From: Thioclava atlantica
GTDB taxonomy: Bacteria > Pseudomonadota > Alphaproteobacteria > Rhodobacterales > Rhodobacteraceae
Reading direction: 5' to 3'
DNA length: 64,000 bases
NCBI RefSeq assembly: GCF_000737065.1
Contig: NZ_AQRC01000007.1
Coordinates: 1-64,000 of the forward strand
The notes beneath the pieces were generated by a model. That model saw nothing but the letters and a program-made list of their open reading frames with translations. It did no database searches and was not told where the DNA came from. A program made the translations under genes and the position numbers. Below are positions 12,726 through 39,748 of the stretch, piece by piece; the stretch's first letter is position 1, and every line of letters starts with the position of its first letter.

Positions 12726-13760
12726 TCATGCCTGGCCTCCCACTTTTTCCTGACGGAACTCTGTGCCGTCGATCCACATCCGATGTAAAAGGACGGCCAG
12801 TTTGCGAGCCACCGCGACGACGGCACGGCGGCGGCCTTTGGTGCGCATGAGGCGCATGCCCCAAGACTTGATCTGCGATCCGGCCATCGTTCGCATAAGC
12901 AACGCATTTGCGGCAGCGTAGAGCGTCGCTCGGACATTCTGATCACCGGCTTTGGAGATGCGACCTGGGTTGTCGTGTTCGCCGGACTGGTATCGCCTCG
13001 GCGTGAGACCAAAGTGCGCGGCTACTGTGCGAGACCGTTTGAACCGATTGGGATCATCGACCGCTGCTTTGAAAGTCAGAGCAGCGATCGGGCCTACACC
13101 AGGCACCGTCATCATCCGCATGCAGACCTCGTCTTGCGACGCCGCACGCTTCACCCGTCGATCCAGTTCAAGATAATGCTGGAACAGGACGGCACGTGCA
13201 TCGAGCAACGGAATGACCGCGTGCGCGAGAACTTCATCCATCTCGATCATGGGCCTCACGAGACCGTCGAAGCTACCGTGCTTGACGGTCCGGGGAAGGC
13301 GAACACCGAATATCTTCAGCAATCCACGCACTTCGTTTGCCAAGTCCATTGTTTTCTTCAGCAAGGCCTTTCTGGTGCTCAGCAGGGCCCGTAGCCCGTG
13401 CGCCTCCCGGCTCTTCATATGCACCGGGCTGAACCAACCCGTCCGCAAAATCTGGGCAATGCCCTTGGCGTCCGTCTTGTCTGTCTTGTTCCGCATCGCT
13501 GAAAGTGCGGCACTGACCTGGCGAGCTTCCATGCACACGATCTCGAAACCCATGTTTTGCAGGCCGAAGAAAAGGTGCTGGCTCAGCGCGCCAGCCTCAA
13601 AGCCGATCCGCACGATTGGGGCGCCGAACGCATTCAGGAAGTTGGCGATTTCGTCGACCTCACACGGGAGCTCTCGCTCCATGCAAACCTTGCCACGACC
13701 GTCCACAATGCAAAGCGCGCAAGACCGAAGCGACACATCCAAACCAACGAAGTATTCCAT
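12726..13760 (-). mobile_element. IS110-family transposase (recombinase) gene
   Basis: A 344-residue transposase. The N-terminal DEDD/RuvC-like domain shows YFVGLDVSL and the KTDKTDAKGIA pattern. The C-terminal Transposase_20 domain has TVPGVGPIAALTFKAAV and GRISKAGDQNVR, which should carry the catalytic serine. Length is typical of the family and no frameshift is visible, so it may be active. The ATG at 13760 has GGGAGA seven bases upstream; the longer frame from 13781 has no such site. IS110 elements lack long terminal inverted repeats, so the ends cannot be drawn from this sequence alone. Recent work shows IS110-group elements express a bridge RNA from the flank upstream of the gene. Confidence 0.9.
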
Positions 13761-14229
13761 TTTCTGTCTCCCTATTCTCACAGCAATGCTGAGATATTAT
13801 CGGGAGCTCGACCTTAGAGCAGGGTCAGCCCAATTACGCATGCTTCCCGCCCCTAGTGTAACTTCCAACCTCAAGGTGAACTAAGAACACTTGGTGAACT
13901 TGGCTAGGCGACCCCTTCTGTCAAGCCGAGCGACTTATCGGCTTGATCACGTGAGCGGACTACCGAAAATGCCTTGCCGCGCCGAATTCGAACACCTATC
14001 CTCGGGGACATCCAAATGTGGCAACAACCACGGATCTACGCAGAAAAGTCTTAACGACTTCAACACCTTAAGACTGAAGACAAGATAGCTCCGTTCCCTA
14101 CCGCCGGAGCCAAATCCCCCTGATAAATCAGAGATTTGCGAGCAAGCCCCTTCGGGGGCTTTTCTCGTTTCCTCCCTAGGGTAACAACTGGGGTAACGAA
14201 AATGCCGCCAAGTTTTCAGCATGGCGGCG
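13761..14229. other. IS110 upstream flank with two hairpins; junction to IS3 remnant
   Basis: This 470-bp non-coding stretch lies upstream of the IS110 gene, where IS110-group elements encode their bridge RNA. A perfect 9-bp stem TCAAGCCGA/TCGGCTTGA with 8-nt loop is at 13921-13946. A second inverted repeat AGTCTTAA/TTAAGACT is at 14047-14054 and 14068-14075. No protein-coding frame is supported. Where the IS110 element ends in this stretch is not evident. Confidence 0.4.
14144..14168 (+). terminator. rho-independent terminator
   Basis: Perfect 7-bp stem AAGCCCC/GGGGCTT around TTCG (14144-14161), followed by TTTCTCGT. No intact gene ends just upstream, so the gene it served has been lost or rearranged by the insertion sequences. 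Confidence 0.6.
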
Positions 14230-27187: not shown

Positions 27188-27277
27188 GGAGAGGTGCCGG
27201 AGCGGTCGAACGGGGCGGTCTCGAAAACCGTTGTGGGTGCAAGCCCACCCAGGGTTCGAATCCCTGTCTCTCCGCCA
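27188..27277 (+). tRNA. tRNA-Ser (CGA anticodon)
   Basis: A 90-nt class II tRNA with long variable arm. Acceptor GGAGAGG/TCTCTCC, anticodon stem-loop CGGT-CTCGAAA-ACCG (anticodon CGA), T-arm CAGGG-TTCGAAT-CCCTG and encoded CCA are visible. It decodes UCG. Its last 14 bases form the left attachment core of the integrated element that starts immediately downstream. Confidence 0.95.
27264..27277. repeat. attL core (14 bp), within tRNA-Ser
   Basis: CTGTCTCTCCGCCA, identical to 39735-39748. It is the T-arm/acceptor end of the tRNA, the usual target of tyrosine integrases. Confidence 0.85.
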
Positions 27278-27367
27278 GATTTCCCCAGTGTGAAATCGGC
27301 ATTTATCAAGCAAAAACAAGATGATATGGAAATCCGCCGCCCGGCGGGTCCGCTATTATGGCTTGAT

Positions 27368-27383
27368 TTGCTACACATTTTGC
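27368..27383 (+). promoter_or_regulatory. candidate integrase arm-type site, left
   Basis: TTGCTACACATTTTGC, about 90 bp inside the left end. It differs by one base from TTGCAACACATTTTGC at 39652-39667 near the right end, as expected of integrase arm-binding sites. Confidence 0.5.
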
Positions 27384-27423
27384 CGCACAAATCGCAGCAC
27401 GGGGCAAAACCGGGAGTCCGGCC

Positions 27424-28695
27424 ATGACCATTATGAAGCGCGGCAGCACATACCACCTGCGGAAGCGGGTTCCGACGCGATACCAGCGGGTTGAAGACCG
27501 CAAGAGCGTCTGGATCAGCTTGCACACTGATTCCGAAACCATTGCCAAACAGAAGGCCCCTATCGCGTGGCAACATCTGGTGGAAGCATGGGAAGCCCGG
27601 CTGGCGGGCGACACGGCAGACGCGGAACGGCGCTTTGACGCGGCCAAGGAATTGGCGGCGGTGCGGGGCTTCCGATACCTTCCGGCGGTCCGCGTGGCCG
27701 ATCTGCCCCGTGAAGACCTTCTGGCCCGCGTGGAGGCCGTCACAGGGCGCGACGGTGAGCCGGACACGCGCGAGGCGGCGGCGGTGCTGGGCGGCGTCCC
27801 CGAGCCGCAAATCACGGTCTCTCGGGCGCTTGATCTCTATTGGGGCTTGGCCGCCGATAAGACCCTCGGCAAGAGCGATGACCAGCTTCGGCGCTGGAAA
27901 AACCCGCGCAAGAAAGCCGTGCGCAATTTCATAGAGGTGGTCGGGGACAAGGCCCTGCCCGACATTACGGGCGACGACATGCTGGATTTCCGGGGCTGGT
28001 GGCTTGAGAAGCTGGAGTCCGACAACCTCACCCCGAACAGCGCCAACAAGGACCTGATTCACCTCGGGGACGTGTTTAAGACGGTCAATAAGATGAAGCG
28101 CCTCGGGCTGGTGCTGCCCCTGTCCGATCTTTCCTTCAAGGAAGGCGAAGCGCGCCAGCGTCCGCCCTTCTCGGAAAGCTGGATCAAGGACCACCTGTTG
28201 AAGCCCGGCGCGCTGGACGGGCTGAACAAGGACGCCCGGTGCATCCTCTTGGCGATGGTCAACACGGGCGCGCGGCCCAGCGAACTGGCGTCCCTGACGG
28301 GCGCGCAAATCCATCTGGACGCCCCGGTGCCCCATATCTCCATTGAGCCGGTCGACAGGCAGTTGAAGACCCGCAACGCCCGCCGCGTCATTCCGCTGGT
28401 GGGCGTGTCGCTGGACGCCTTCAAAGCCTGCCCCAAGGGCTTCCCCAAATACCGCACCACATCCGCCAGCCTGTCCGCGACGGTGAACAAATACCTTCGC
28501 GCCAATGGTCTCATGGAGACGCCGGGACATTCTCTCTACGGGTTGCGGCATAGCTTTGAAGATCGACTCTTGGCGGCGGGCATAGATGAGCGGATCAGGC
28601 GCGACCTTTTCGGCCACGCCCTTGATCGTGAGCGTTACGGCAAGGGGGCTTCGCTGGCCCACGTTCGGGACCTGATTCAGCGGGTGGCACTTTGA
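27424..28695 (+). CDS. tyrosine recombinase / phage integrase
   Basis: A 423-residue integrase. An N-terminal arm-binding part (MTIMKRGSTYHLRKRVPTRY), a SAM-like core-binding domain (about 140-230) and a catalytic domain are visible. Catalytic residues are in NTGARPSEL (Arg), LYGLRHSFEDRL (His-x-x-Arg box) and FGHALDRERYGKG (His/Trp position and Tyr nucleophile). The gene is adjacent to tRNA-Ser and reads away from it, the standard layout for integrases that use a tRNA 3' end. The ATG at 27424 has GGGAG upstream; an ATG three codons later is also possible. Confidence 0.93.
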   Translation: MTIMKRGSTYHLRKRVPTRYQRVEDRKSVWISLHTDSETIAKQKAPIAWQHLVEAWEARLAGDTADAERRFDAAKELAAVRGFRYLPAVRVADLPREDLLARVEAVTGRDGEPDTREAAAVLGGVPEPQITVSRALDLYWGLAADKTLGKSDDQLRRWKNPRKKAVRNFIEVVGDKALPDITGDDMLDFRGWWLEKLESDNLTPNSANKDLIHLGDVFKTVNKMKRLGLVLPLSDLSFKEGEARQRPPFSESWIKDHLLKPGALDGLNKDARCILLAMVNTGARPSELASLTGAQIHLDAPVPHISIEPVDRQLKTRNARRVIPLVGVSLDAFKACPKGFPKYRTTSASLSATVNKYLRANGLMETPGHSLYGLRHSFEDRLLAAGIDERIRRDLFGHALDRERYGKGASLAHVRDLIQRVAL

Positions 28696-28880
28696 GCGGC
28701 AACCGCGCGAGCGCGGGCCACCACGTCATTCGCCAGCAAGGCTTCCTCTTGCGCGATTTCGGCCTCTAGGCGGCTGAAAATCGGCGCATAGACGGGATCG
28801 GCCACCACCAGCTTGGCAACGGTCTCAAGAGCCGCCCGAAGGCGCTCCAAGTCCGTTTGCATGGTGGTGGCCGCCCGCAT
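28677..28880 (-). CDS. small satellite protein, unknown
   Basis: A 67-residue helical protein (QTDLERLRAALETVAKL, then a Glu/Ala-rich helix). It starts 4 bp after the DUF2190 stop and ends overlapping the integrase 3' end by 19 bp. A protein of this size at the end of a head gene module could be a small head-completion or scaffolding product, but no family is recognised. Confidence 0.5.
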   Translation of the reverse strand: MRAATTMQTDLERLRAALETVAKLVVADPVYAPIFSRLEAEIAQEEALLANDVVARARAVAAQSATR

Positions 28881-28884
28881 CGTC

Positions 28885-29214
28885 TTAGCCGTTCAGACGC
28901 ACGTTGACGGTGCCCGACGGGTTCCCGGCGGCGGTCACGGCAAGGCCGATCAGTTCATTGTTGCCCGTGTCGTCATCGGCGGTCGCCAGCTTGGCGGTAT
29001 CGTCCCAATAGACGAAATCGCCCACGGCCAGCACGTCGGTCGAGACTTTCGGCATGTCGAAAACACCGACGGTCACAAGGTCGAGGGAGTCCCCGATTTC
29101 GGCATTCCCGGCAGCAATGCCAAAGAGGTTGCCGACAAGGACGCCTTGGCCGGACGTGGCGGCGGCGGTCGCGGTGATGGTGATATTCTCACCGGGTTGG
29201 ACGTAGTTCTTCAT
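28885..29214 (-). CDS. DUF2190 family protein (capsid decoration/stabilisation-like)
   Basis: A 109-residue protein with the DUF2190 pattern: MKNYVQPGENITITATAAATSGQGVLVGNLFGIA and GVFDMPKVSTDVLAVGDFVYWDD. DUF2190 proteins are found beside HK97-fold capsid genes in phages and are thought to decorate or stabilise the head. It is mostly beta. It lies directly after the gpW-like gene (3 bp). Confidence 0.8.
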   Translation of the reverse strand: MKNYVQPGENITITATAAATSGQGVLVGNLFGIAAGNAEIGDSLDLVTVGVFDMPKVSTDVLAVGDFVYWDDTAKLATADDDTGNNELIGLAVTAAGNPSGTVNVRLNG

Positions 29215-29217
29215 GGG

Positions 29218-29433
29218 TCAGATTCCCTTGCTCATATTGAAGTGGATCGTGGAGGCGGGCCGGGCCGTCTGGGCGGCGATTTCCGCATCAAGAGCGGCCA
29301 GCGCGCGGGCCATCTCGGAGTCGGAGCGGTATTCTACTTCCTCCCCGTTCTGGTCCCGGAAGCGCCGGACGCCGCCAGCGCGAGCGGCCAAGAGGTCCGC
29401 CCGCATTTTCTGAAGTTCGGCCACGGTCGCCAT
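29218..29433 (-). CDS. gpW-like head-tail joining protein
   Basis: A 71-residue protein, MATVAELQKMRADLLAARAG then GVRRFRDQNGEEVEYRSDSEMARALAALDAEI. The size and the helix-hairpin-helix pattern with GxxRxxxxNGxEVEYxS match lambda gpW-type proteins, which complete the head and form the base for tail attachment. The start ATG at 29433 is inside a longer out-of-family frame; it lies 1 bp after the capsid stop. Presence of a tail-joining protein without any tail gene fits a satellite that borrows tails. Confidence 0.78.
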   Translation of the reverse strand: MATVAELQKMRADLLAARAGGVRRFRDQNGEEVEYRSDSEMARALAALDAEIAAQTARPASTIHFNMSKGI

Positions 29434-29434
29434 A

Positions 29435-31180
29435 TTACGCGCCTTCGTTGAAGTAAGCGCCGCGCCAGTCAGCCCAGCCCGTGCCGAAGTCGAGGAACGC
29501 GCGATACTGCATCCCGAGCGTGGTCCACGCTTCCTGACGCTGAATCTGAACGCCCTGCGCCGACGACAGATAGGCGAACTGAAGCGACGGGACCGCCGCC
29601 GGATCGGCCATGACATACCAGCCGGTGCCCGTGATCCGGGGTTCCACCACCAGCTTCAGCTTGATCGGCTGCACGTCATCCGTGGTCGCGGCGTAGATCG
29701 CGGCCAACAGCTTTTCGGCCTTGGTTTCGAGTTCCGGCCCGATCACCAGATAGCGCGGGGTCACGCCGATGATGGTCTTGCCGTCGAGACCCTTCACGCC
29801 GCGCATGGCGAGCCGGGCCGCGTCCAGCGACGTTTCGGTGATGTCAGCACCCGCCGCCGCCATGTTGCCGCGCCCAGTGGCGAAAACAGCCGTGCCGTCG
29901 GACAGGTCGGGGTTGCCGATGAAGGTAGCCACCAGTTCTTCGGCTTCGGTCTGGGCCGCCGCCGCACCAATGGCCGCCGTCATGTCGCCCAGCATGTTCA
30001 GATCATCGTCGATCAACAGTTTGCGGCTGACATTGATCGCCCGCCCGAAGGTCTTCAGGGCCATCTTCTCGCCCGCTTCGGCGCGGCTGGTCGCTTTGAA
30101 CTCGCCGTGTTCCGTCATTTCTTCAAGGCGGCCCATCTCACCCAAGCGGATGGAGGTGGATTCCTTGAAGTTCGGAAGCGTCCGCTGGCGGGCCAGCGCC
30201 TTCAGCGGGCTTTCGGCGGCGCGATACGAGTCCAGGGCGACTTTGCCCATCGCATTGGAGACCAGCAGAGGGAAGTCAGACGTGCCGTGCGCGGCGGCGC
30301 GCTGGAACAGTTCATCCGCCGAAAGGCCACGGGTGGACTCGCCCGCCCGCGTCAGGGCATCGGCGGCCATATCGCGGAGCGACATATTGACGAACTCGCG
30401 CGAGGCATCGGGCAGTTCGCCCCCGGCCATGCGGAAAGCCAGCGCGTCGGCCTGACGGGTGCGCAGCGCGGCGGCGTCATCATTGGCCGGGGCGGCGGTG
30501 CGGATACGGGCCGGGGTTCGGCGCTGCATCGCCTCAAAGGCTTCGGCGCGGGCTTCGGTGATGGACAGATCACGGTCGATCATGTCATCAGCCTGTTCCG
30601 CCGTCATGCCAGCGGAGCGGCAAATCTGGCGGATAGCCGCGCGGGTTTCGGTGGTTTTGTCTTCGGTGTTCTCCACCTGAAGGTCTTCGTTTTCCATGGA
30701 TTCACCTCGGAATTGGCTGCCGGGATCGGCAGGGATAGGGACGGCGGAGACTTCGGAAATAGACCACGCCGCCGCCGTCCGAACGCGAGCGCGGGAATTG
30801 GGATCGGCGGACTCGGCCCAGCGGGTCACGCGGTAGCCGATGGAAACGCCCTTGATGGTGCCTTCGCGGATACGCTCCACAATCGGGGCGGCATCGGCTG
30901 CCCCGGAAAGACGGATGGTCGCCACCAGCTTGCCGTCTTCCATGCGGTGCCCGGTAATGGTGCCGATCACGTCACGGGCAGAGCCTTGGCGGTGGCCGTC
31001 CAGAACGGGCGCACCGATCAGGCGGGACGTATCCAGCCCGGCGGGGTCCAGCCGCTCCATAAAGCCCTTGCGCTGCACCGGGGCGAAGGTCGAAATCACG
31101 GCCTCCACGGTGCCCGCATCGGCGTTGAAGGTGTCCGGGGCGAAGACCGCCCGGCGGGTCAGGAAAGCTTGCGTTTCCAC
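29435..31180 (-). CDS. prohead protease fused to HK97-type major capsid protein
   Basis: A 581-residue protein. Residues ~1-160 form a caudoviral prohead protease: PVLDGHRQGSARDVIGTI with the catalytic His and GVSIGYRV with the Ser. A charged helical linker (~165-260) acts as a scaffold/delta domain. Residues ~270-581 are a capsid domain with SFRDMAADALTRAG-like and LIDDDLNMLGDM segments and a C-terminal FGTGWADWRGAYFNEGA. In most phages the protease and capsid are separate genes; fused forms occur. It would be cleaved during head maturation. The ATG at 31180 overlaps the preceding small gene. Confidence 0.85.
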   Translation of the reverse strand: METQAFLTRRAVFAPDTFNADAGTVEAVISTFAPVQRKGFMERLDPAGLDTSRLIGAPVLDGHRQGSARDVIGTITGHRMEDGKLVATIRLSGAADAAPIVERIREGTIKGVSIGYRVTRWAESADPNSRARVRTAAAWSISEVSAVPIPADPGSQFRGESMENEDLQVENTEDKTTETRAAIRQICRSAGMTAEQADDMIDRDLSITEARAEAFEAMQRRTPARIRTAAPANDDAAALRTRQADALAFRMAGGELPDASREFVNMSLRDMAADALTRAGESTRGLSADELFQRAAAHGTSDFPLLVSNAMGKVALDSYRAAESPLKALARQRTLPNFKESTSIRLGEMGRLEEMTEHGEFKATSRAEAGEKMALKTFGRAINVSRKLLIDDDLNMLGDMTAAIGAAAAQTEAEELVATFIGNPDLSDGTAVFATGRGNMAAAGADITETSLDAARLAMRGVKGLDGKTIIGVTPRYLVIGPELETKAEKLLAAIYAATTDDVQPIKLKLVVEPRITGTGWYVMADPAAVPSLQFAYLSSAQGVQIQRQEAWTTLGMQYRAFLDFGTGWADWRGAYFNEGA

Positions 31181-31353
31181 GTTTCAAATTCCTTGTCTTG
31201 GGGCGTCAGCTTGCGGCCTTCTTTCGGCAGCACGATCACGGTCGCTTTCTCGGGGTTCAGGGTCAGGCGCGGCCCGGTGATTTCGTCAGATGCACCAGCG
31301 CGCTCAACCAGTTTGCGGTGATACTTCTCTCTGTCGCGCTCTTGCGGGGTCAT
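31159..31353 (-). CDS. small satellite head-module protein, unknown
   Basis: A 64-residue charged protein, MTPQERDREKYHRKLVERAG start. It overlaps the portal stop by 4 bases and the capsid start by 22 bases, so it is embedded in the head operon and likely translated. No family is recognised; the position between portal and protease-capsid suggests a head assembly role, by inference. Confidence 0.6.
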   Translation of the reverse strand: MTPQERDREKYHRKLVERAGASDEITGPRLTLNPEKATVIVLPKEGRKLTPQDKEFETWKRKLS

Positions 31354-32723
31354 TCGGCGGCCTCCTGTTTCGGGGCCGTCTGGCGCGGGTCGGCGGCGAT
31401 TTCGGCGTCGAGGTCTTCCAAGGACCACCCGCGTTGCGCCACCAGCTTGCGGCGAGACGTGAGGCCCGCTTCGAGTTCGGCCACGTCGGCTTGAACCTGT
31501 TTGGCGGGGTCCACCTGCATGAAAGCGGGCGGCAGCCACTCGGCAGCGTATGCGCGAGGGGCGGACTCGAAATCGGGCGCGGCCAGATCACCGGACAGGA
31601 CGGCGTAGGTGATGACCTGCCGCCAGATCGGCGCGAGGAACTGCGGGACCAAGACCCCGTATTGAATCTGTTCAACCCGCTGGCGGAAAGGCAGAAGCCC
31701 GGCGCGCAGGCTCGAATAGTTTGCGTTCGAGAGGTCGCCCGACAACAGATGATCCGGCAGGCCCAGACCGGCGGCCAATTGCTGCAATTGCAGGCGAAGA
31801 AAGGACCCGATTTCAGTGAGTTGGCCCGGCGTGTTGAATTTGACGTCGTAGCCGGTGGGCAAGCGTTTCATCGTGCCGGGTTCCAGCCCGGTTTCCAGAA
31901 TCCCGCCTTCCCCGGTTCCATCGTAGGGTTCCCCGCCCGTGCCGTTCAAATCGACAAGGAAGGCGCTGTGCATCGCCGCGACTTTGGCACCCATCAAGAG
32001 CGCATCGGTCAACTGGTCGAAGTCAGAGGCGGAGAGGATGACCGGGGCGAGCCAAGAGACACCGCGCACCTGACCAGCCGCCAAGGGTTTCATGACGTGG
32101 ATGATCTCATCCGCAGGGACCCGGACGGGCGGCGCGTGATTGGCGAATTGATCGTGCGGGCGGTGGGGCAAGACGTGATACGCCACCCGACGGCCTTCGG
32201 CATCGAACTCGACGCCCTGAACGATTACGGCCCCACCCCCGATTTCACGGGTCAGGCTTTCGTCTACCAGTTCCGGCGGCAGCAAGCGGAGACGCGGCCC
32301 GTCTTCACCCGGCAGGACGTGAAGGAAGGCTTCGCCATCAATCACCAGCCCGCGCGCCACATCCGCTTGGAGGCCGAAAAAGTCGGTGCGGCCATCGGCG
32401 TCGGCATGGTCAGCCCAAGCGCCGAAAGCGGCGGTCAGATCGGCACGGGTCGAGGCGTCGGGGTGGCGCGGCGTCGGGACAATTCCGGCCCCGACCAACG
32501 CACCAGCCCAATTTGCGACGGCTTGGGCCATCCAAGGATTGTTCGCCACCAGATAGCGAGCGCGGGACCGAAGAGTCGCGCCAGAGGCGGACACTTCCGA
32601 ATTGACGCGCCCGAACGTCCCAACCCCGAAACCACGGCGGCCACCAGCGGCCCCATCAAATCGACGGACGGCTTTAGCCTTTGCGGGGCGGGTAAACAGC
32701 TTCGGAAAGGACAAAAGGGCCAT
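31350..32723 (-). CDS. phage portal protein (lambda-type)
   Basis: A 457-residue portal protein. Recognisable segments are LRSRARYLVANNPWMAQAVANWAGALVGAGI, EIIHVMKPLAAGQVRGVSWLAPVI and GDLSNANYSSLRAGLLPFRQRVE, all characteristic of the lambda-type portal family. Portals form the ring through which DNA enters the head. The start ATG at 32723 lies 1 bp after the end of the 208-residue gene, so both are in one transcript. Confidence 0.92.
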   Translation of the reverse strand: MALLSFPKLFTRPAKAKAVRRFDGAAGGRRGFGVGTFGRVNSEVSASGATLRSRARYLVANNPWMAQAVANWAGALVGAGIVPTPRHPDASTRADLTAAFGAWADHADADGRTDFFGLQADVARGLVIDGEAFLHVLPGEDGPRLRLLPPELVDESLTREIGGGAVIVQGVEFDAEGRRVAYHVLPHRPHDQFANHAPPVRVPADEIIHVMKPLAAGQVRGVSWLAPVILSASDFDQLTDALLMGAKVAAMHSAFLVDLNGTGGEPYDGTGEGGILETGLEPGTMKRLPTGYDVKFNTPGQLTEIGSFLRLQLQQLAAGLGLPDHLLSGDLSNANYSSLRAGLLPFRQRVEQIQYGVLVPQFLAPIWRQVITYAVLSGDLAAPDFESAPRAYAAEWLPPAFMQVDPAKQVQADVAELEAGLTSRRKLVAQRGWSLEDLDAEIAADPRQTAPKQEAAE

Positions 32724-32724
32724 A

Positions 32725-33351
32725 TCAGTTCACCACGGGTTTGTCGCGGGTGATGTGTTCAAGGATCGGGTCCAGATCGAGGACCCAGAGCGAACGGCGT
32801 TCCCAGCTTTCGCCGGGGTTCCAGAAAGACGTGCCCACCGAATTATTGGACTCGAAATCGTAATGGCGGACGCGGGCCGTGAACTTCAGGTCACCCCGCC
32901 CGGTCGTGTTGCGGATAGTGGCGAGTTCAAAGCCGAAGTTGCGGTGGCCTTGGAGATAGCCGCGCATAACCCACGCGGCGGGGTTCGGTGCGGGCGGCTC
33001 TTGGCCGTCAAGATCATTGAGGTTCCAGCCCAAGAAATGACGCCCGGCAGCGGCCATAGGCTCACCAGTCAGGCCACATTCGGCAAGGCGGTGCAGGATC
33101 GCGGTGACAAGAATCTGTTCAGCGCGGAAAAGATAGCTGCGGCGCTTGTCAGAGCGGCGGCGTCCGTAAGGCGTCACATACCCGTCGGCAACACGATTGC
33201 GGAGAAACTTGGCGGCCTGCTTCGCGTCAAAGCCCACATGGGCGAGCGCACGGGCAGCCTGTTCAGTCGTCACCCCGAGTTCGTCGGGGGCTTCTTCAGG
33301 GATGAAGAACACACCCCCATATTCAGGATCACGGTCTTCGGTGCTGGTCAT
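32725..33351 (-). CDS. satellite protein of unknown function, possible wHTH
   Basis: A 208-residue protein. The middle part (ALAHVGFDAKQAAKFLRNRV followed by GYVTPYGRRRSDKRRSYLF) looks like a winged-helix or MerR-like DNA-binding segment; the C-terminal half resembles nothing I know. The ATG at 33351 follows TTAGGAG. It is the first gene of the leftward head module (portal, capsid) and faces a regulatory region with a palindrome. This would suit a regulator or a head protein; both are guesses. Confidence 0.6.
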   Translation of the reverse strand: MTSTEDRDPEYGGVFFIPEEAPDELGVTTEQAARALAHVGFDAKQAAKFLRNRVADGYVTPYGRRRSDKRRSYLFRAEQILVTAILHRLAECGLTGEPMAAAGRHFLGWNLNDLDGQEPPAPNPAAWVMRGYLQGHRNFGFELATIRNTTGRGDLKFTARVRHYDFESNNSVGTSFWNPGESWERRSLWVLDLDPILEHITRDKPVVN

Positions 33352-33381
33352 TGTCAGGGACTCCTAAGTTGGCGAATCCCT

Positions 33382-33410
33382 GAATATCATCTCGCAACAA
33401 GTCGTCTCAA
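33382..33410 (-). promoter_or_regulatory. candidate leftward promoter of the head module
   Basis: On the minus strand TTGAGA (33410-33405) is followed after 16 bp by GATATT, about 30 bp before the ATG of the 208-residue gene. The match to consensus is partial. Confidence 0.35.
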
Positions 33411-33425
33411 GTGTCTATAATATCA

Positions 33426-33444
33426 CGTCAAATTTGGTTTGACG
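33426..33444. promoter_or_regulatory. palindromic operator candidate between divergent satellite genes
   Basis: CGTCAAAtttggTTTGACG has perfect 7-bp arms and a 5-bp spacer. It lies between leftward (33351) and rightward (33581) genes, where a satellite repressor would be expected to bind. Confidence 0.45.
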
Positions 33445-33519
33445 GTCGATTAAGGGATACAGCAAATCCTTGCATCGTCTTGCAGGAAGATGGTATGGAG
33501 GATTCGTCAACACGCCAAA

Positions 33520-33556
33520 GGGGCGGGCGGGGTTTCGACATGGCCTCGCCCGCCCC
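33520..33556 (+). other. strong hairpin in the leader of the 85-residue gene
   Basis: 10-bp perfect stem GGGGCGGGCG/CGCCCGCCCC, extendable to 13 bp with one G-T pair, loop about 11 nt. It ends 25 bases before the GTG start. It has no T-run on the plus strand, so it is more likely a leader structure than a terminator. Confidence 0.45.
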
Positions 33557-33580
33557 ATCCATTTCAGAAGGATCAAAGAC

Positions 33581-33838
33581 GTGGATCGCAACACCCGGAA
33601 CGCCCACAGCCTGTTTGCCCCGTTCATTGCGGGTGAGATTCATCCCAAGCGCCAAGAGGTCGCGCAGCAACTTGTCCACCAGTGGGTTCGGCGGTCGGGC
33701 GAGTTTGCCAGCCTGTCTTGGGATGACGATCAGATTTGCGAAGCGATTGACGCTGATATGGCCCGCGACACAGGCTTTACCGCCATGCTGAACAAGGTTC
33801 TGGCGTTGCGGGATGGTCGCGGGGCGCTTCCGGTCTAA
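33581..33838 (+). CDS. small satellite protein, unknown
   Basis: An 85-residue acidic, helical protein starting at GTG 33581 with AGAAGGA nine bases upstream. It contains QEVAQQLVHQWVRRSGEFASL and WDDDQICEAIDADMARDTGF. It reads opposite to the head genes, like a regulatory or early gene. A longer frame from 33470 would include the leader hairpin and is less likely. No family is recognised. Confidence 0.55.
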   Translation: MDRNTRNAHSLFAPFIAGEIHPKRQEVAQQLVHQWVRRSGEFASLSWDDDQICEAIDADMARDTGFTAMLNKVLALRDGRGALPV

Positions 33839-33905
33839 TCAAGCGTGGAACTAAGGGCGATTCTGTGGTCAGCTACGCGGGATATTTTTAAAGGGACTCG
33901 CGGCG

Positions 33906-34586
33906 ATGAAAATTTGGAACAGCCTGAGCCTGTGGGCTGGCGTCTTACTCACAATTTCAACTGTTTCACCATTAAAAGCACAAGAGCGCCCTGTAACGGA
34001 GAACTGCTTTGAAGTTGTGACTGCAATGAATTTTGCCCTTCAGGGAATGCCAGATACCGGCGTCATGGGTATCTCATTGAAAAACGGCGGCGAAACAAGA
34101 CTCATGATCTTCGTCGCTTTGGGAAACGCAGCGGACCAATCAAATCCAGCGAAATGGCGCATTCTTGAACGCCAGAATGAAACCCTCACATATTGTCTTA
34201 TCGGGGCTGGGGATGAATTGGAAATCTTGCAGAGTCTACATGACATTCCGGGTTTCGGGGCGGAGTTCGGGCTTCCCGGCACCTCAAGACGGCGCTGCAA
34301 TGACGAGTCGGATGGAGCAATGGGTAGCGTTGCTGTCCGAGCTTGGGCAAACAAAGAGCTTGGCCCAAGTCTAGTGCAGCACTTTAGCTCACCTTTTCGA
34401 GGTTCATCTTATACGGCATTGATTGCAAATGACCGCGTTCAAGGAGGTTATGCGTGGACTCTCTTAAAAAGCGACGGAAATCGGAACTGTTACTTGTCGC
34501 AAGGCGATGACAGTTCTTTTTCGCCAGATTTCGCAATGCGCCCCGAACTAGTCCAAGACCCCAATACATTGCCGCCCTTGCAATAA
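33906..34586 (+). CDS. secreted hypothetical protein (cargo/moron gene)
   Basis: A 226-residue protein with a signal peptide (MKIWNSLSLWAGVLLTISTV, cleavage after LKA-Q) and four cysteines in the mature part, consistent with a disulfide-bonded periplasmic or secreted protein. It reads against the neighbouring terminase and head genes and is visibly richer in A/T than they are, the signature of a cargo gene acquired separately. It converges on the large terminase gene with a 2-bp gap. No family is recognised; a host-benefit or superinfection role is a guess. Confidence 0.65.
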   Translation: MKIWNSLSLWAGVLLTISTVSPLKAQERPVTENCFEVVTAMNFALQGMPDTGVMGISLKNGGETRLMIFVALGNAADQSNPAKWRILERQNETLTYCLIGAGDELEILQSLHDIPGFGAEFGLPGTSRRRCNDESDGAMGSVAVRAWANKELGPSLVQHFSSPFRGSSYTALIANDRVQGGYAWTLLKSDGNRNCYLSQGDDSSFSPDFAMRPELVQDPNTLPPLQ

Positions 34587-34588
34587 CT

Positions 34589-36361
34589 CTACCTTTCCAG
34601 CCAAGCAGACTTAACAACGGTCGGGGCCTTTTTCGGCCCGTCCTTTCTGGCAAGATCGCTTTCCCGGCGTTCCATGTCCAGCCCGACAAGCTGCCGCGCG
34701 GCGTAGGAATAGGCCAAAGTGTCCAGCGCCTCGTTCCGGCGGCCCGAGATGACTTCCCAGACGCGCATGGGGCGGCCCCGGCTGAACTTTGTCACCAGCC
34801 GTTCGGCGCGTATTTGGTCGAAATAATCGCCGGACAGGTCTTCCGAAAACAGGATCGTTTCGCCGTGGGCAAGGCGCTGGTGCAAGGCCAGCTTCACGCC
34901 GTCCACCCCGATCAGAGCCAGCCGGACCTTGCGGGATGAACTGAAGGCCAGAGACGGGCGGCTGAAGCCGGACACGCCTTTGCCGGGCAAGACCCGGCGG
35001 GCCGTGCGGGGGCGGCAGAAATCATAGACTTGATCCGCCCAATTCCCGGAGTCGATCACGGCGGCGTCCACGTTCAACACGCCCCCAAGCGGGTGACGGA
35101 ACTGGCGGCGCAAGGCGTCTTCCACCTCCACCCATGTTTCGGCGTCGGTCGGGTCGCCCCAAATCGGGACATGACCCAAGACGCGCATGTCCCCGTCTGC
35201 CGTCCAGCCCGTATAGGTCAGTTCCACGCGGTCCTTCTGCACGTCCCCGCCCACGGTCAGCACCAGCGAATCTTCGGGCACGGTCTCCATGTTGAAGGGC
35301 CGTTGCAAGGCCGCGAAATCGGTCGAGTCCAGGTCATCGCCTTCCCCGCGCCAAGCCTCGCCCAGCACCGTGTTCAGCCACGGTTTCAGGGTCGTGGGGC
35401 TGCGCTTGGCCTGAAGGAACTCCGCCGCCAGCTTCGGCCATGTCGCGTTCGGCAGCGTGGAGGTCAGAGAAGTCAGCTTATAGCCCCTATGCCCTTCCAC
35501 ATGGGGCGCAAGAGCGCGCCAGCGGCCCGCCGCGACGATCTGGGCCTTGTGGCGGTCCTCCACCCGGCCTTCGCAAGAGGGGCAGCGCCAATGGGCCGTC
35601 TCGGGCTTGTCCGCGTCCCATTTGATGTCCGCCCACAGGATTTCCGAGAACTGCCCACAATGGGGGCAAGGCACCTCAAAGACCCGTTGGTCGGATTGCT
35701 CATAGGCCCGCAAAATCCGGCTGGTCTCGGCATCAACGGGCGTGGAGGCCAGCACGATCCGGCGATTGCCGAAGGTCATGGTGCGGCGCATGGCGAGTTC
35801 TACAGGGTCGCCTTCGGTGCCAGCGGACAGTTCGTAAGCGTCGATTTCATCGGCAAACAGAATCCGGGCCGTCCGGGCGCGAAGGTTGCGGGGCGCGCGG
35901 GCGGAGACGATGGAAAGGCTGCCCCCGGCAAAACGGCGGTGAAGCATGGTGTCACGCCCGGCGGTGTCTTCGGACAGGGCAGCCCGGAGTGACGGGGACT
36001 CTTGGAAGGTCGGTTCGATCACGGAAACCATGAGGTGCCGCGCGTCCGCCTCGGCAGGCACAACGCAAAGGACCGGGCTGGGGTCATTCTCCACGAAATG
36101 CCCCAAGGTTCCCACCATGAGTTGCGTGGCCCCGACGCGGGCCGATTTGAGGATGGAAACGCGCTCCACGGTGTCGTCCCCGATGGAGTTGGCGATTTCG
36201 ATCTGGGGTTTCCAAAGACGCATACGCCCCGGCTGGGCGGCAATCGAGGACGGCAGGAAGACGGACGCCTGAATCCAGTCTGCCAGCGCCAGCTTCGCGG
36301 GCGGGCGGAAGGCTTGCAGGGCGTCCCGGCGCATCTGGGCAAGGCGGGGGTCAACGGTCAT
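34589..36361 (-). CDS. terminase large subunit (GpA type)
   Basis: A 590-residue packaging ATPase/nuclease. N-terminal SSIAAQPGRMRLWKPQIEI, the adenine/Walker region ILKSARVGATQ, Walker B ILFADEIDAY and the C-terminal nuclease segment VLTVGGDVQKDRVELTYTGW fit the lambda GpA family. CPHC and CPSC pairs in the middle form a zinc site. It drives ATP-powered packaging and cuts DNA at cos. It overlaps the small subunit by 11 bases. A satellite with its own terminase packages its own DNA independently of helper terminase. Confidence 0.93.
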   Translation of the reverse strand: MTVDPRLAQMRRDALQAFRPPAKLALADWIQASVFLPSSIAAQPGRMRLWKPQIEIANSIGDDTVERVSILKSARVGATQLMVGTLGHFVENDPSPVLCVVPAEADARHLMVSVIEPTFQESPSLRAALSEDTAGRDTMLHRRFAGGSLSIVSARAPRNLRARTARILFADEIDAYELSAGTEGDPVELAMRRTMTFGNRRIVLASTPVDAETSRILRAYEQSDQRVFEVPCPHCGQFSEILWADIKWDADKPETAHWRCPSCEGRVEDRHKAQIVAAGRWRALAPHVEGHRGYKLTSLTSTLPNATWPKLAAEFLQAKRSPTTLKPWLNTVLGEAWRGEGDDLDSTDFAALQRPFNMETVPEDSLVLTVGGDVQKDRVELTYTGWTADGDMRVLGHVPIWGDPTDAETWVEVEDALRRQFRHPLGGVLNVDAAVIDSGNWADQVYDFCRPRTARRVLPGKGVSGFSRPSLAFSSSRKVRLALIGVDGVKLALHQRLAHGETILFSEDLSGDYFDQIRAERLVTKFSRGRPMRVWEVISGRRNEALDTLAYSYAARQLVGLDMERRESDLARKDGPKKAPTVVKSAWLER

Positions 36362-36872
36362 CGGAAATCACCTCCATAGCGTCCCGGATTTCGGCATCCA
36401 GCGCGGCGGTCGTGGCGCGGTCCATCCCCATCCGCCCAGCCACCCGCGACGGCACGGCCAGCACGGCGGCGCGCAAATCGGTCACGATGGAGCGCCATTC
36501 GTTCGCCACCTCGCGCCCGTCCAGAAGATCGCCCCGCGCCTTCGCGTTCTGGATTTCCAGTTTCTCGGCGGTGGCCTTCGCGGCGCGCAGTTTCTCGGCG
36601 GCCAGTTCGGAATCGACGCGGCGGCCCTGCGCCCCGGCGCGGGCATGATCGCAATAGGCGCGGATCGCCTTGCGGAGCGGAAACCGCTTGTCGGGGTTCC
36701 GGGGCAAGACGCCTTCGCGGGCGAGCGCCGAAACGCGGTTGGGGGTCAGGCCCAGCCATTCCGCCAGATCGGCAGCGTTCACCAGATCGCCGTCTTCGGC
36801 CCGCGTCTCGGGCAGCCCGATCAGGTCATCAATCTCGGCAAGTTCGGTATCGGTCAAATTCTCCATGCTCAT
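36351..36872 (-). CDS. terminase small subunit (Nu1-like)
   Basis: A 173-residue protein with an N-terminal winged-HTH of Nu1 type (NAADLAEWLGLTPNRVSALAREGVLP) and a helical oligomerisation part (LRAAKATAEKLEIQNAKARGDLL), immediately upstream of the GpA-type gene. Nu1 proteins bind cosB repeats and recruit the large subunit. Residues 10-21 (ELAEIDDLIGLP) are identical to a segment of the VapE-type protein. An alternative start is Met3. The region upstream carries repeated GTGACCC motifs that could be its binding sites. Confidence 0.82.
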   Translation of the reverse strand: MSMENLTDTELAEIDDLIGLPETRAEDGDLVNAADLAEWLGLTPNRVSALAREGVLPRNPDKRFPLRKAIRAYCDHARAGAQGRRVDSELAAEKLRAAKATAEKLEIQNAKARGDLLDGREVANEWRSIVTDLRAAVLAVPSRVAGRMGMDRATTAALDAEIRDAMEVISDDR

Positions 36873-37337
36873 GGCCTCTCAACTGTCCCGATCATCCCGC
36901 CACAGCGGAAAACGGGTTTTCGATTTCAAAATTTTCGTGGTGGGCAATACATCGGGGCTTCGGCGCCCCCGCACCCCACCCGCCGTATAGGACCCGTAGC
37001 CCGATCAACGCGCCGCCGTGGTCAAGCCGTGACCTATGCCACCTGTGACCCTCGGCGAAGGTCACGCACAAAGCACTGACAACAAAGGACAAAACGACGT
37101 TCGTGACCCAAGTGACCCACAAAACCCCTATGTTACTCCCCCAGCCCCCGTGCTGCCCTCTCCACTGGTGGGCCGTGGCCTGTCCCTGTTCCCCAGCACT
37201 CTTGTTGAACTGATAAGGGTCACAAGGGTCACAGGACGGATTCAGCCAATGAAAACAGGGTTTTGCGAGTGACCCATAAGGGTCATCCCAAGAGTCACAA
37301 TGGGTCACGCCCCGTTGATATGTTGCCGCCGTGGTCA
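36873..37337. other. non-coding region with GTGACCC repeat cluster (ori or cos candidate)
   Basis: This 465-bp region separates the replication gene from the terminase genes. Seven exact copies of GTGACCC or its complement occur at 37045, 37103, 37112, 37217, 37226, 37269 and 37302, with near copies at 37029, 37060, 37280 and 37292. Two pairs are tandem with 9-bp spacing. An open frame on the minus strand (36892-37386) crosses it, but its composition follows the repeats and it overlaps the VapE-type gene, so I do not call it. Confidence 0.6.
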
Positions 37338-39521
37338 TTAAACCCGCGCCCACCGTTTCCCGACCCGCGTATGGATTTTCGCCCACCCAAGGGTGCGCAG
37401 AATATCGGCCACACGTTTCTGGTTCGCCCGCGTTTGCTGCCCGCTATTCAGGCCAAGCGCACCGCTCAACACTTCCGAAATCCGCACCTCGGTCTTCACC
37501 TCGCCAGCGGCGTCAAAATCGTCTGCGGGCTTGTCCAGCCATTCGGCCACGTCATCCGCCCAGCTATCGGCTTCGCGCGCTGCCTCTTGCACCGGGCGCG
37601 CGTGTTCCGCTTCAAAGTCCCGATCCAAACACCACGCTTCCCCGGCCTCATAGGCGGCGAAGGCTTCGGCAAAAAGCTGGTCCCGCGCGCTGGCAAGGGC
37701 TTCAAGGTCGATCTGGTGAACGGTCACGGGCCAGAAGCGCCGCCCGCCCGTCGCATCCCGCAAGAACTGGTCTTCATTGGTGGTGCCCACGAAAACACAT
37801 TGCCGGGGAAACGACTCGTCAAAGCGGGCGTAGGGCAGCCGCACCCGGTCCACCGCCCCGGACAGGAACGCCTTCAGGTCTTCGGCCTCGCTCTTGCGGG
37901 ACGGCGCGAGTTCGGCCAGTTCCACCAGCCACTTGCCCTGAAGGTGGCGAATAGCGTCCGTCTTGTCCCCGGCGATGCTGGGCAGCGTGTCGCTAAAATA
38001 CTCCGCCCCGGCGAGGATACGGCAGGCGGTCGATTTGCCTATACCTTGCGGCCCGGACAGAACAAGGGTGTGGTCCGCCTTACATCCCGGCTCCATGACG
38101 CGGGCGACCATTTGCAAAAGGAACTTGCGCCCCACGGCCCGCGTATAGGGCGTGTCTGCCGCCCCGGTATAGCGCACCAGCCACGAGTCTAACCGCTCGC
38201 GCCCGTCATGGTGAAGGCTCCGCAACTGGTCCCGGATCGGGTGATATTGCAAATGCCGGGCCACGGTCAGGGCGGCGTCGGCCACCAGTTCCTTCCCGAC
38301 GGTGCGCAAGCCGCGCCGTTCCAGCCCCGTCCGCGCCAGCGCGAGGGCCGCGTCATTCAACGGCCCGTCGCACCATTCATCGCGCCGGGTCATAAGGTTG
38401 TGCCTAAGGCCGGGAAGGATCGAGTCGAGGTTCCGCCCGAGATACACAATCGCGTTGTTCAGGTTGTTCACGGGCTTGCCCCGTTCCCGGATCACGCTGC
38501 CCCAATCCGGCCCTTCCGTGGTCGCGGGCAGGCCGATCAGGTCATCAATCTCCGCCAGTTCATCGGCGGGGATCACGTCATCAAAAGCGGACAGGTCAAT
38601 CCAGCCCCGGCGCTCCGCTTCCGCGCGGATCGTGGCGAAGGTGCGAGGGTTCTTCCCGCCGCCGCCAAACGAGTCCCAGACTTCGGCGGTTTCGTCGGGG
38701 TCATAGCTGGGGTGCCGCTCGCTCCACTCATGGAACAGGGCCAGCCCGTCTTCGCTGCCGCCCGTCGCGTGATGCAGCGCCATGCCCATATGCAGCCACC
38801 AGAGGCGTTCCGCCGCGTCCGGGTTGCTCGCGTCATTGGGGATCGTCAGAAGGGCTTCCCGGACGTGCTGAAGGGCCAGCCCTTCGCCTTCGCCAGAAGC
38901 GGCCCGGCGCTCGCGCTTCACGCTGCCGCCGTCCTTGTAGATCGGGGCCAAGCCATCAACCATGTCAATCGGCTGCCCGTCCACAAGGAAGGTTTCAACC
39001 GGAGTCCCGCCCTCTACGTTGCCCGCGTAATAGGACTGCGAAAGGGTGAAGCTGGCCGGGTCCAGCGCGCCGCCCAGAATGCCGTTCAGCCGCGCCATGA
39101 GGTCTTCGCGGGCCTCGGGCGGCAACGGGCCGCTAAACGGTGCGAGAACGCGCCAGCGGGGCGCGTCCGGGCTATGGCTGGGGGTGGTGTAGACAAGCCC
39201 GGCCACGCCCGCCTTTTCCAAGGCATCGCGGGCCGCGTCGGGGGTCATGTTGCCCGCGTCATAGTCCGCTTCCAGCCCGGTCACGGTGCGGACGTTGGCA
39301 TTGTGGCGAAGGCTTTTCTTCGGCGTCTTATCGGGGCCGAAGGTCGCCAGCTTGATCCACGGCAGGCCGTCTTTGCTCTCCGCCCGCTGGTCCGCAATCC
39401 AGCGCGCCAGATCGGCCAGCGAAAAGGTCAGTTCCTTTTTCTGGAAAGCGCCGCGTGTCGGGAAGCGAGTCAGCGTCAGGGGTTGCCGTGCATCGGCAGA
39501 TTTCGTATTCTTATCAGGCAT
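37338..39521 (-). CDS. VapE-type primase-polymerase/helicase
   Basis: A 727-residue replication protein. The N-terminal ~250 residues look like a primase-polymerase domain (TGLEADYDAGNMTP; YTTPSHSPDAPRWRVL). The C-terminal part is a VapE/D5-like ATPase with Walker A SGPQGIGKSTACRILAG, VELAELAPSRKSEAEDLKAFLS and FVGTTNEDQFLRDATGGRRFWPV. Such proteins start satellite and phage replication. The ATG at 39521 has AGGAG eight bases upstream, better than 39548. A linker carries ELAEIDDLIGLP, shared with the small terminase subunit. It is the first gene of the leftward replication-packaging module. Confidence 0.9.
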   Translation of the reverse strand: MPDKNTKSADARQPLTLTRFPTRGAFQKKELTFSLADLARWIADQRAESKDGLPWIKLATFGPDKTPKKSLRHNANVRTVTGLEADYDAGNMTPDAARDALEKAGVAGLVYTTPSHSPDAPRWRVLAPFSGPLPPEAREDLMARLNGILGGALDPASFTLSQSYYAGNVEGGTPVETFLVDGQPIDMVDGLAPIYKDGGSVKRERRAASGEGEGLALQHVREALLTIPNDASNPDAAERLWWLHMGMALHHATGGSEDGLALFHEWSERHPSYDPDETAEVWDSFGGGGKNPRTFATIRAEAERRGWIDLSAFDDVIPADELAEIDDLIGLPATTEGPDWGSVIRERGKPVNNLNNAIVYLGRNLDSILPGLRHNLMTRRDEWCDGPLNDAALALARTGLERRGLRTVGKELVADAALTVARHLQYHPIRDQLRSLHHDGRERLDSWLVRYTGAADTPYTRAVGRKFLLQMVARVMEPGCKADHTLVLSGPQGIGKSTACRILAGAEYFSDTLPSIAGDKTDAIRHLQGKWLVELAELAPSRKSEAEDLKAFLSGAVDRVRLPYARFDESFPRQCVFVGTTNEDQFLRDATGGRRFWPVTVHQIDLEALASARDQLFAEAFAAYEAGEAWCLDRDFEAEHARPVQEAAREADSWADDVAEWLDKPADDFDAAGEVKTEVRISEVLSGALGLNSGQQTRANQKRVADILRTLGWAKIHTRVGKRWARV

Positions 39522-39639
39522 CTTTTGGTCTCCTATGGGCCTCTGCATGAGGGTGCACTTCTTCCACGCCCCCGGTCAGCCAGCCGGGGGCGTTTCCATT
39601 TCCGAGTTTATCGGGAATCGGTTCTATCGCCACCAGATT

Positions 39640-39667
39640 TTGCAACACAAGTTGCAACACATTTTGC
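39640..39667 (+). promoter_or_regulatory. candidate integrase arm-type sites, right (two overlapping copies)
   Basis: TTGCAACACAAGTTGC (39640-39655) and TTGCAACACATTTTGC (39652-39667) overlap by four bases; the second matches the left-end site at 27368 in 15 of 16 bases. Confidence 0.5.
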
Positions 39668-39734
39668 GGCGCGTGATTTTTGTAAGTCGCTGATTTAAGG
39701 AGATAATATAGTCTGGCAAAGTCGAAACGACGGA

Positions 39735-39748
39735 CTGTCTCTCCGCCA
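39735..39748. repeat. attR core (14 bp)
   Basis: CTGTCTCTCCGCCA, an exact copy of the tRNA-Ser 3' end, with no tRNA body upstream. It marks the right boundary of the element. Confidence 0.85.

Follow-up and report, generated by a model that had tools for sequence, protein, structure and literature searches.

The 64,000-nucleotide stretch of Thioclava atlantica DNA analysed here (contig NZ_AQRC01000007.1, positions 1 to 64,000; hereafter the window) contains a 12,471-bp integrated element that is best explained as a satellite which makes and fills its own capsids and takes tails, and probably lysis functions, from a helper. The probability of this reading is put at about 0.83. The element is bounded by 14-bp direct repeats derived from the 3' end of tRNA-Ser(CGA). 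Two exact copies of the 14-mer, and no others, occur on the forward strand of the window, and the first forms the final 14 bases of the tRNA gene. The core genes are intact as open reading frames (ORFs) according to the gene calls. The GC content is 0.63 for the element and 0.52 for a cargo slot within it.

As shown in Table 1, repeat searches and family matches confirm what the original prediction had listed from the sequence alone, namely att repeats and an integrase at tRNA-Ser, a VapE-type replication protein, both terminase subunits (genes terS and terL), a portal, a fused protease-capsid protein, and gpW-like and DUF2190 proteins. In what follows, L and G numbers designate loci and genomes, respectively.

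Table 1. Features of the integrated element, with positions in the window.
Feature	Position	Strand	Basis or remark
tRNA-Ser(CGA), integration target	27188..27277	+	ARAGORN
att copy 1 (tRNA 3' end)	27264..27277	+	repeat search
tyrosine integrase type A (DUF6538 + Phage_integrase PF00589)	27424..28695	+	family match
67-aa protein, gene overlaps integrase gene tail to tail	28677..28880	-	proposed integrase A partner
cement/decoration protein (DUF2190)	28885..29214	-	PF09956 2.3e-28, phrog_122
gpW-like head-tail adaptor (Ad1)	29218..29433	-	phrog_2545 8.6e-14
fused prohead protease / major capsid protein	29435..31180	-	phrog_4523 4e-160, PF04586 + PF25209 (Peptidase_S78 + Phage_capsid_4)
64-aa small protein, gene lies between those of portal and capsid	31159..31353	-	homologues in near relatives
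portal protein, lambda family	31350..32723	-	PF05136 3e-86
208-aa predicted MerR-like regulator	32725..33351	-	AlphaFold2 model + PDB match
85-aa small protein, divergent from regulator	33581..33838	+	gene call, homologues in L028, L032
226-aa orphan cargo gene in variable slot	33906..34586	+	N-terminus hydrophobic by eye
terminase large subunit (GpA type)	34589..36361	-	PF05876, PF20454 (ATPase 7.2e-77, nuclease 2.7e-69)
terminase small subunit	36351..36872	-	phrog_57 7.9e-23
lambda-type cos-like site, GGGTCCT ... GCGGGGGCGCCGAAGCCCCG	36953..36995	-	spaced-motif match
primase-helicase (PriCT_2 + VapE domain)	37338..39548	-	family match, VapE 2.5e-76
att copy 2	39735..39748	+	repeat search

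Searches for tail and lysis genes

That no tail, tape-measure, baseplate or lysis gene is visible in the element had also been claimed at the outset, and the claim stands for recognisable families. None of the element's searched proteins matched a tail, baseplate or lysis family in Pfam or PHROGs (E ≤ 0.1; the 85-aa ORF was not searched alone), and the ORFs of 64, 67, 208 and 226 aa had no family match at E ≤ 0.01. When 13 tail and lysis proteins of the tailed Rhodobacter phage RcKemmy were searched against 91 loci, a set that includes duplicate records and the window's own element (L027), no homologues were obtained at E ≤ 0.01. As a control, the same queries recovered 11 of the 13 in the tailed prophage L058 (capsid 35% identical).

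Unassigned proteins of the relatives were compared to PHROGs in two batches. The 47 proteins from eight elements matched 14 families, none of them described as tail, and for 48 proteins from nine further loci there was no tail description among the 25 of 39 families listed. These proteins were gene-caller picks with chance ORFs included, and the results identify the family matched but not the individual protein responsible. As far as the searches reached, neither full-length tailed relatives with the same synteny nor a hidden tail or lysis gene was found.

A family of relatives with a near-uniform size

A match to the capsid protein (E ≤ 0.001) is present in 14 of 61 genomes, these being the host's own and 60 relatives. 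The nearest matches outside the host genome are 56% identical in a congener (G004) and 44% identical in another genus (G019), the latter being split over two frames. A scan of one genome per species produced eight loci with the head module, from Rhodobacter viridis, Paracoccus nototheniae, Falsigemmobacter faecalis, Mangrovicoccus ximenensis, Martelella radicis, Sinorhizobium psoraleae and two metagenome bins. IMG/VR supplied 29 loci at first and 321 relatives with an alignment-based query; those read are the best 80 of the 321, and more distant, possibly tailed ones lie outside the set. The contigs of the best 80 are 4–20 kb in length with one exception of 31.9 kb, which carries a second terL and portal in opposed orientation. 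A search of 50,697 phage records gave 114 matches to the capsid protein, each below 60% identity; in the best 60 of the 114 the identity is 24–35%, and the top-ranked record is 31% identical over 99% of the query.

After eight duplicates were removed, the head module was found in 83 loci from Rhodobacterales, Rhizobiales and metagenomes, many of which are partial. Portal and capsid genes were detected in all 83, followed by cement (80), adaptor (75), integrase (69), terL (59), terS (51) and primase (37). The usual order, seen in most loci that are long enough to show it, is primase-terS-terL-slot-regulator-portal-capsid-adaptor-cement-integrase. The primase-terminase block is inverted in L082 and L103.

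Direct repeats delimit 15 integrated elements, that of the window and 14 of the 26 relatives tested (L021, L022, L024, L025, L032, L039, L056, L076, L090, L091, L098, L105, L122 and L129). No end repeats were accepted in the other 12 (L020, L026, L027, L043, L053, L075, L077, L078, L093, L103, L112 and L119), some of which are contigs trimmed at the element's genes. The delimited elements sit at Ser, Arg, Met, Cys, Glu or Phe tRNA genes, with the exception of L090 for which no tRNA search was made. Together with the circle L023, the 16 elements with defined ends span 10,306–13,161 bp with a median of 12,242 bp. So narrow a range is what a fixed capsid volume would produce, and it is not what one would expect of independent deletions. 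The many relatives alike in size and layout suggest a lineage of genetic parasites of long standing, which probably takes its tails from other phages. The alternative offered by the original prediction, that this copy is a prophage which lost its tail module, is unlikely because size, gene order and the lack of tail genes are common to a diverse clade.

Three members depart from the usual composition. L023, from Falsigemmobacter faecalis, is a 12,094-bp contig with a 45-bp terminal repeat and is read as a 12,049-bp circle. It has a RepL-like gene (1.8e-4) and no integrase was found in it; this locus may be the satellite in plasmid form. The element L056 of a congener (10.3 kb) showed no primase match between its repeats, and the primase of L021 was matched solely when the protein of another member served as the query.

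Gene order and capsid phylogeny

In RcKemmy, RcMamaDuck, a Microcystis phage and a Vibrio phage, the gpW/Ad1 gene is annotated between terL and the portal gene, and prophages L059 and L060 likewise carry it there. An ORF of the size of gpW occupies the same place in LPPA33, a Bordetella phage and MinM1, judged by size and place. Across 92 rows with both portal and capsid (duplicate records included), the adaptor lies behind the capsid gene in 72, before the portal gene in one (L059, tailed) and was undetected in 19, nine of which are tailed. The shift of the adaptor gene to a position behind the capsid gene is, judged from gene arrangement, a shared derived order of the tail-less family.

A capsid tree was calculated for 93 rows after 11 of 104 were dropped (eight duplicates; L028, L031 and L057). 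The tree is unrooted. The label tailed or tail-less changes twice on this tree, and one branch (Shimodaira-Hasegawa-like approximate likelihood ratio test, SH-aLRT, 93) splits 82 of the 83 tail-less rows from the 10 tailed rows plus L074. Tail-less rows include partial contigs, and the label means that no tail gene was found in the available DNA. Rows were labelled tailed by annotation or matches (L058, L059, L064, L132, L133, L135 and L136), as isolated phage genomes (L065 and L134), or in the case of L060 through a 2,024-aa ORF the size of a tape measure. L074 is the 10,690-bp plasmid RHOAph of Rhodovastum atsumiense. It encodes a protease-capsid fusion, an FII-like protein (2e-6), a DUF3987 protein, ParA and toxin-antitoxin genes; a terminase match is absent.

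A cos-like site and an apparently excised relative

In the family, the sequence GGGTCC(T/C) stands just 5' of terS, with a GC-rich near-palindrome about 25 bases further; GGGTCC(T/C) itself was found in 43 of 52 upstream stretches (duplicate records included). We take the two to be cosQ and cosN, respectively. The spaced motif gave 44 matches in 84 loci, compared to four in one shuffle of each locus and 6–12 in ten Markov resamples. For the 59 loci with a detected terL, the motif is on the terL strand in 41, on the other strand alone in one (L129) and absent from 17. Forty of the 41 are positioned 2.3–2.8 kb before the 3' end of terL, which places them just 5' of terS, and the remaining one belongs to the permuted contig L034. 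The window has a single match at 36995 on the minus strand. The layout in lambda is similar, where GGGTCCTTTCC starts 30 bases ahead of the left end. The motif also precedes the terS-like gene of the tailed prophages L059 and L060, and there is no match in RcKemmy and several other tailed phages.

A comparison of the window and L032 over the stretch before terS gave differences that fall evenly over the codon positions (21/22/23) and, as a result, this stretch was read as non-coding. An HNH gene before terS, as in capsid-forming phage-inducible chromosomal islands (cf-PICIs), was considered and discarded, since six ORFs from this stretch in relatives (L038, L039, L024, L043, L025 and L021) also had no Pfam match.

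The metagenome contig L034 runs from terS through integrase to primase, a permutation of the integrated order, with a single att core between integrase and primase that by eye resembles the 3' end of tRNA-Ser. Compared to L038, the contig's own sequence ends inside the cos-like site and continues as an inverted chimera of about 70 bases; the other end starts about 50 bases past the cos-like site after a primer-like 17-mer. This arrangement fits an excised circle or its linear unit cut at cos, and is suggestive only because it is a single contig.

The possibility of a decaying prophage with its tail and lysis modules deleted may now be weighed. Decay would fit the homology between the head genes and their counterparts in tailed phages like RcKemmy, and also the end of the module at the point where a gene for head-tail attachment (gpFII) would come next. 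The core genes, however, remain unbroken, the many diverse relatives share the moved adaptor along with their size, order and lack of tails, and no close tail-bearing relatives with the same synteny were present in the best 80 of 321 IMG/VR relatives. Decay is thus highly improbable, and it was set aside as the principal explanation on the basis of family size, the shared derived order and the excised relative.

Cargo slot and predicted regulator

The DNA of L028, a metagenome relative, is 92–93% identical to the window over terS-terL and from regulator to integrase, yet neither the slot (34599-33837) nor the greater part of the primase gene can be aligned, which points to exchange of the slot between closely similar elements. 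In other relatives the slot contains a PIN protein matching PDC-S34 (L043) or an MtlR-type protein (L048). The slots of L033 and L024 encode a HEPN-like and a DUF3800 protein, respectively, with Pfam matches that narrowly miss the cut-off. A Pycsar cyclase (PADLOC 5e-89) and a PycTM effector were also identified in the slots of relatives, and we infer that both belong to L039. The slot of L075, on a Paracoccus plasmid, is annotated with DNA methyltransferases and an HNH gene. The slots of L026, L028 and L032 had no Pfam match. The 226-aa cargo gene of the window matched nothing in Pfam, PHROGs, PADLOC or plasmids, and among the 61 genomes it is present in its own genome alone, with zero homologues in the 60 relatives.

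The 208-aa protein that adjoins the slot has no sequence-family match. An AlphaFold2 model (mean predicted local distance difference test score, pLDDT = 73.9) was searched against the PDB, and the best match was the MerR-type protein CvkR (PDB: 7xn2, E = 5.4e-3, probability 1.00, query template modelling score 0.45). Further matches were mostly MerR-type, none reaching E ≤ 0.001. From a moderate model and a weak E-value, the protein is predicted to be a MerR-like regulator. Homologues of the divergent 85-aa gene are at the equivalent position in L028 and L032.

Proposed integrase partner and insertion site

Every locus with integrase A (18 of 18) has the 67-aa protein, and no locus with integrase B (0 of 47) does; a putative AlpA-like neighbour is present in 34 of the latter. 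In the congener G010, the same tRNA-Ser site is occupied by an unrelated element of 15.3 kb that carries tail genes and is preceded by integrase A and a 67-aa homologue. Integrase A and the 67-aa gene are, from this co-occurrence, a module that travels as a unit, and the 67-aa protein may be regarded as a putative excision factor for integrase A. The G010 element (L167/L166; G010:C1, about 2066.7-2082.0 kb) encodes an HK97-type head, a tail tube and a closure protein; its tape measure is divided over two ORFs, and there is a weak match to a tail terminator.

The tRNA-Ser gene and its left neighbour occur together in 10 of 15 congeners. An empty site with both flanks was not obtained, as the right flank was not found beside the conserved left flank and tRNA. 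Eight congener regions were read: in six, the genes that follow the tRNA include no integrase of this type, the seventh is that of G010, and the last ends 183 bases past the tRNA.

These small genes bear on a further alternative, an autonomous tail-less virus whose HK97-type heads leave and enter cells by another route without a helper. The complete set for head, packaging and replication would suit such a virus, as would the orphan small genes (64 aa, 67 aa and 85 aa) and the resemblance of L023 to a plasmid-like circle. The 67-aa gene, however, tracks the integrase type, a lysis or entry gene was not recognised, and a gpW-type adaptor implies the docking of further neck and tail parts. This explanation is therefore very unlikely.

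Possible helpers and points against the satellite interpretation

A satellite that takes its tails from elsewhere needs a helper, and several observations weigh against this interpretation. No helper was found in the host genome, with PF10145, PF04984 and the RcKemmy tape measure giving no match, and a search with PF05521 led solely to a cluster (L138; G000:C2:192.8-206.7 kb). Since just four families or proteins were used as tail queries, a helper in the host genome may have been missed. The RcKemmy queries recovered just one of 13 in prophage L059 and none in L060, both taken as tailed, which indicates that they are blind to some tail types. The absence of a tail rests on homology, and an attachment protein that escaped recognition could be encoded among the orphan ORFs. 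In the capsid tree, the support of the dividing branch is below the 95 mark, and L074, labelled tail-less despite its FII-like match, groups with the tailed rows. No HNH endonuclease, alpA homologue (HTH_17) or closure (stopper) family was matched in the element's searched ORFs, with the 64-aa and 67-aa orphans as remaining candidates for the last. Two weak matches in relatives point to tail or lysis functions: one of the 47 proteins, not a window protein, matched an Rz-like spanin family (E = 0.0032), and L023:8948-9340 matched the tail terminator PF23818 below threshold (E = 0.048). Both were taken as chance, the former being one weak match among 47 proteins and the latter protein having a better match to HTH_17 (0.0019).

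Its gene order, together with five matches to tail proteins of RcKemmy, makes L138 look like an RcGTA-like gene transfer agent (GTA) cluster. It is the sole neck and tail cluster found in the host genome, which raises the question of whether the satellite docks to GTA tails and not to those of a phage. The cluster has a PF05521-type closure protein as opposed to the gpW-type adaptor of the satellite, and a phage helper may have escaped the four tail queries. Docking of the satellite to tails of the domesticated GTA of its host is very improbable, and use of these in place of phage tails is the least probable of the explanations considered. The only GpA terminase match in the host genome is the element's own.

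Outside the host, Paracoccus is reported to carry tailed prophages, those described being at least 35 kb, and 17 of the siphovirus prophages encode a fused structural protein of nearly 700 aa (PMC6536676, in excerpt). The word "satellite" is absent from the text of that paper (PMC6536676). Such tailed prophages are plausible helpers.

Elsewhere in the window, a Septu-like PtuB/PtuA pair is encoded on the minus strand at 5352-8542 (PADLOC 1.2e-127 and 1.9e-253). The adjacent ORF at 4197-5342 is presumably DUF2235-like, and a large helicase-like ORF (8959-12285) and a transposase-like ORF (12726-13781) were noted nearby by eye. The pair and its neighbours form a lower-GC defence island.

Proposed cycle

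The satellite interpretation may be considered in terms of the following cycle. The MerR-like regulator, divergent from the 85-aa gene, would respond to a helper or to damage. The integrase and its presumed 67-aa partner would then excise the element from tRNA-Ser, and the VapE-type primase-helicase, going by its family, would replicate it. The element's own TerS and TerL would cut at the lambda-type cos site before terS, and one unit of about 12.5 kb would enter, via the element's portal, a small capsid that is matured by the protease and coated with cement protein and that the gpW-like adaptor may close. Since no recognisable stopper or tail gene follows the adaptor, the helper would have to supply the stopper, tail and lysis functions. 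Exchangeable cargo, apparently of an anti-phage type in some relatives, would sit in the slot that separates terL from the portal operon.

A broader proposal, to which even odds are given, is that capsid-forming satellites evolved a second time, independently, and that this lineage, built on a lambda-type head (GpA terminase, cos-like site and protease-capsid fusion), radiated in Alphaproteobacteria at a near-fixed size of about 12 kb, with gpW-ended particles, a helper-given stopper and tail, and anti-phage cargo as payment to the host. The findings suggest that making a head and borrowing a tail is a strategy with more than one origin, in this case in a different head lineage, and that it is widespread in Alphaproteobacteria. 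Elements that prophage surveys may file as incomplete could then be viewed as satellites with predicted ends, a packaging site and a cargo slot.

Comparison with known satellites and phages

The comparisons below draw on excerpts of the cited papers. Published cf-PICIs encode capsid, protease, portal, connectors, terminases and HNH (PMC10690885, PMC13230959, PMC10448857). Their capsids belong to PF05065 (PMC13230959), and alpA and Pri-Rep are signature genes (PMC10690885, PMC13230959, PMC10448857). The window element resembles them in being integrated by an integrase between att sites and in having its own capsid, head protease, portal, both terminase subunits, an adaptor and a primase-replication gene with no recognisable tail genes (PMC10690885, PMC13230959, PMC10448857, PMC13345588). 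Where cf-PICIs have an Stl-like regulator induced by a helper, a MerR-like regulator is predicted here. In contrast, the capsid is PF25209 fused to a protease rather than PF05065; the latter had no match at E ≤ 0.1, with PF25209, PF04586 and PF10124 matching instead. The terminase, portal and cos-like site are of the lambda or GpA type, the adaptor gene is behind the capsid gene, and the named hosts are Alphaproteobacteria. Among the papers listed in the literature searches, no title or abstract opening described such satellites in this class.

It could be that the element is a cf-PICI in the strict sense whose signature genes diverged past recognition. The functional content is the same and a putative AlpA-like gene adjoins the integrase in sister elements; however, the fused PF25209 capsid, the GpA terminase, the absence of HNH and the lack of a recognised closure protein make this quite unlikely. 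The original prediction of a cf-PICI-like satellite is upheld with respect to the likely mode of action and not with respect to strict family membership, as HNH, a PF05065 capsid, a recognisable closure protein and, in this member, AlpA are missing.

Other systems offer partial parallels. The cf-PISP satellite-plasmid TG54 of Vibrio is, like L023, a small tail-less capsid-forming circle, and differs in having a PF05065 capsid, HNH, an Stl-like regulator and a Vibrio host (PMC13230959). The Streptomyces satellites MulchRoom and MiniFlayer likewise possess terminase, portal and capsid with an incomplete tail set, but have direct terminal repeats, no primase, virulent helpers and actinobacterial hosts (PMC10690885). 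The tailed phages RcKemmy and RcMamaDuck share terL, gpW-like, portal and protease-capsid fusion genes with the element, and RcKemmy also has terS and a cement homologue. Their capsids are 29–30% identical to that of the element. They differ in that head-tail attachment and tail genes continue the module, gpW is before the portal and the genomes are about 41 kb; RcKemmy also has a holin and endolysin. From sequence relationships, the head of the element derives from the lambda/GpA-type lineage. The functional plan of a cf-PICI is present and four of its markers are missing; the element most likely functions like a cf-PICI and probably reached that state separately.

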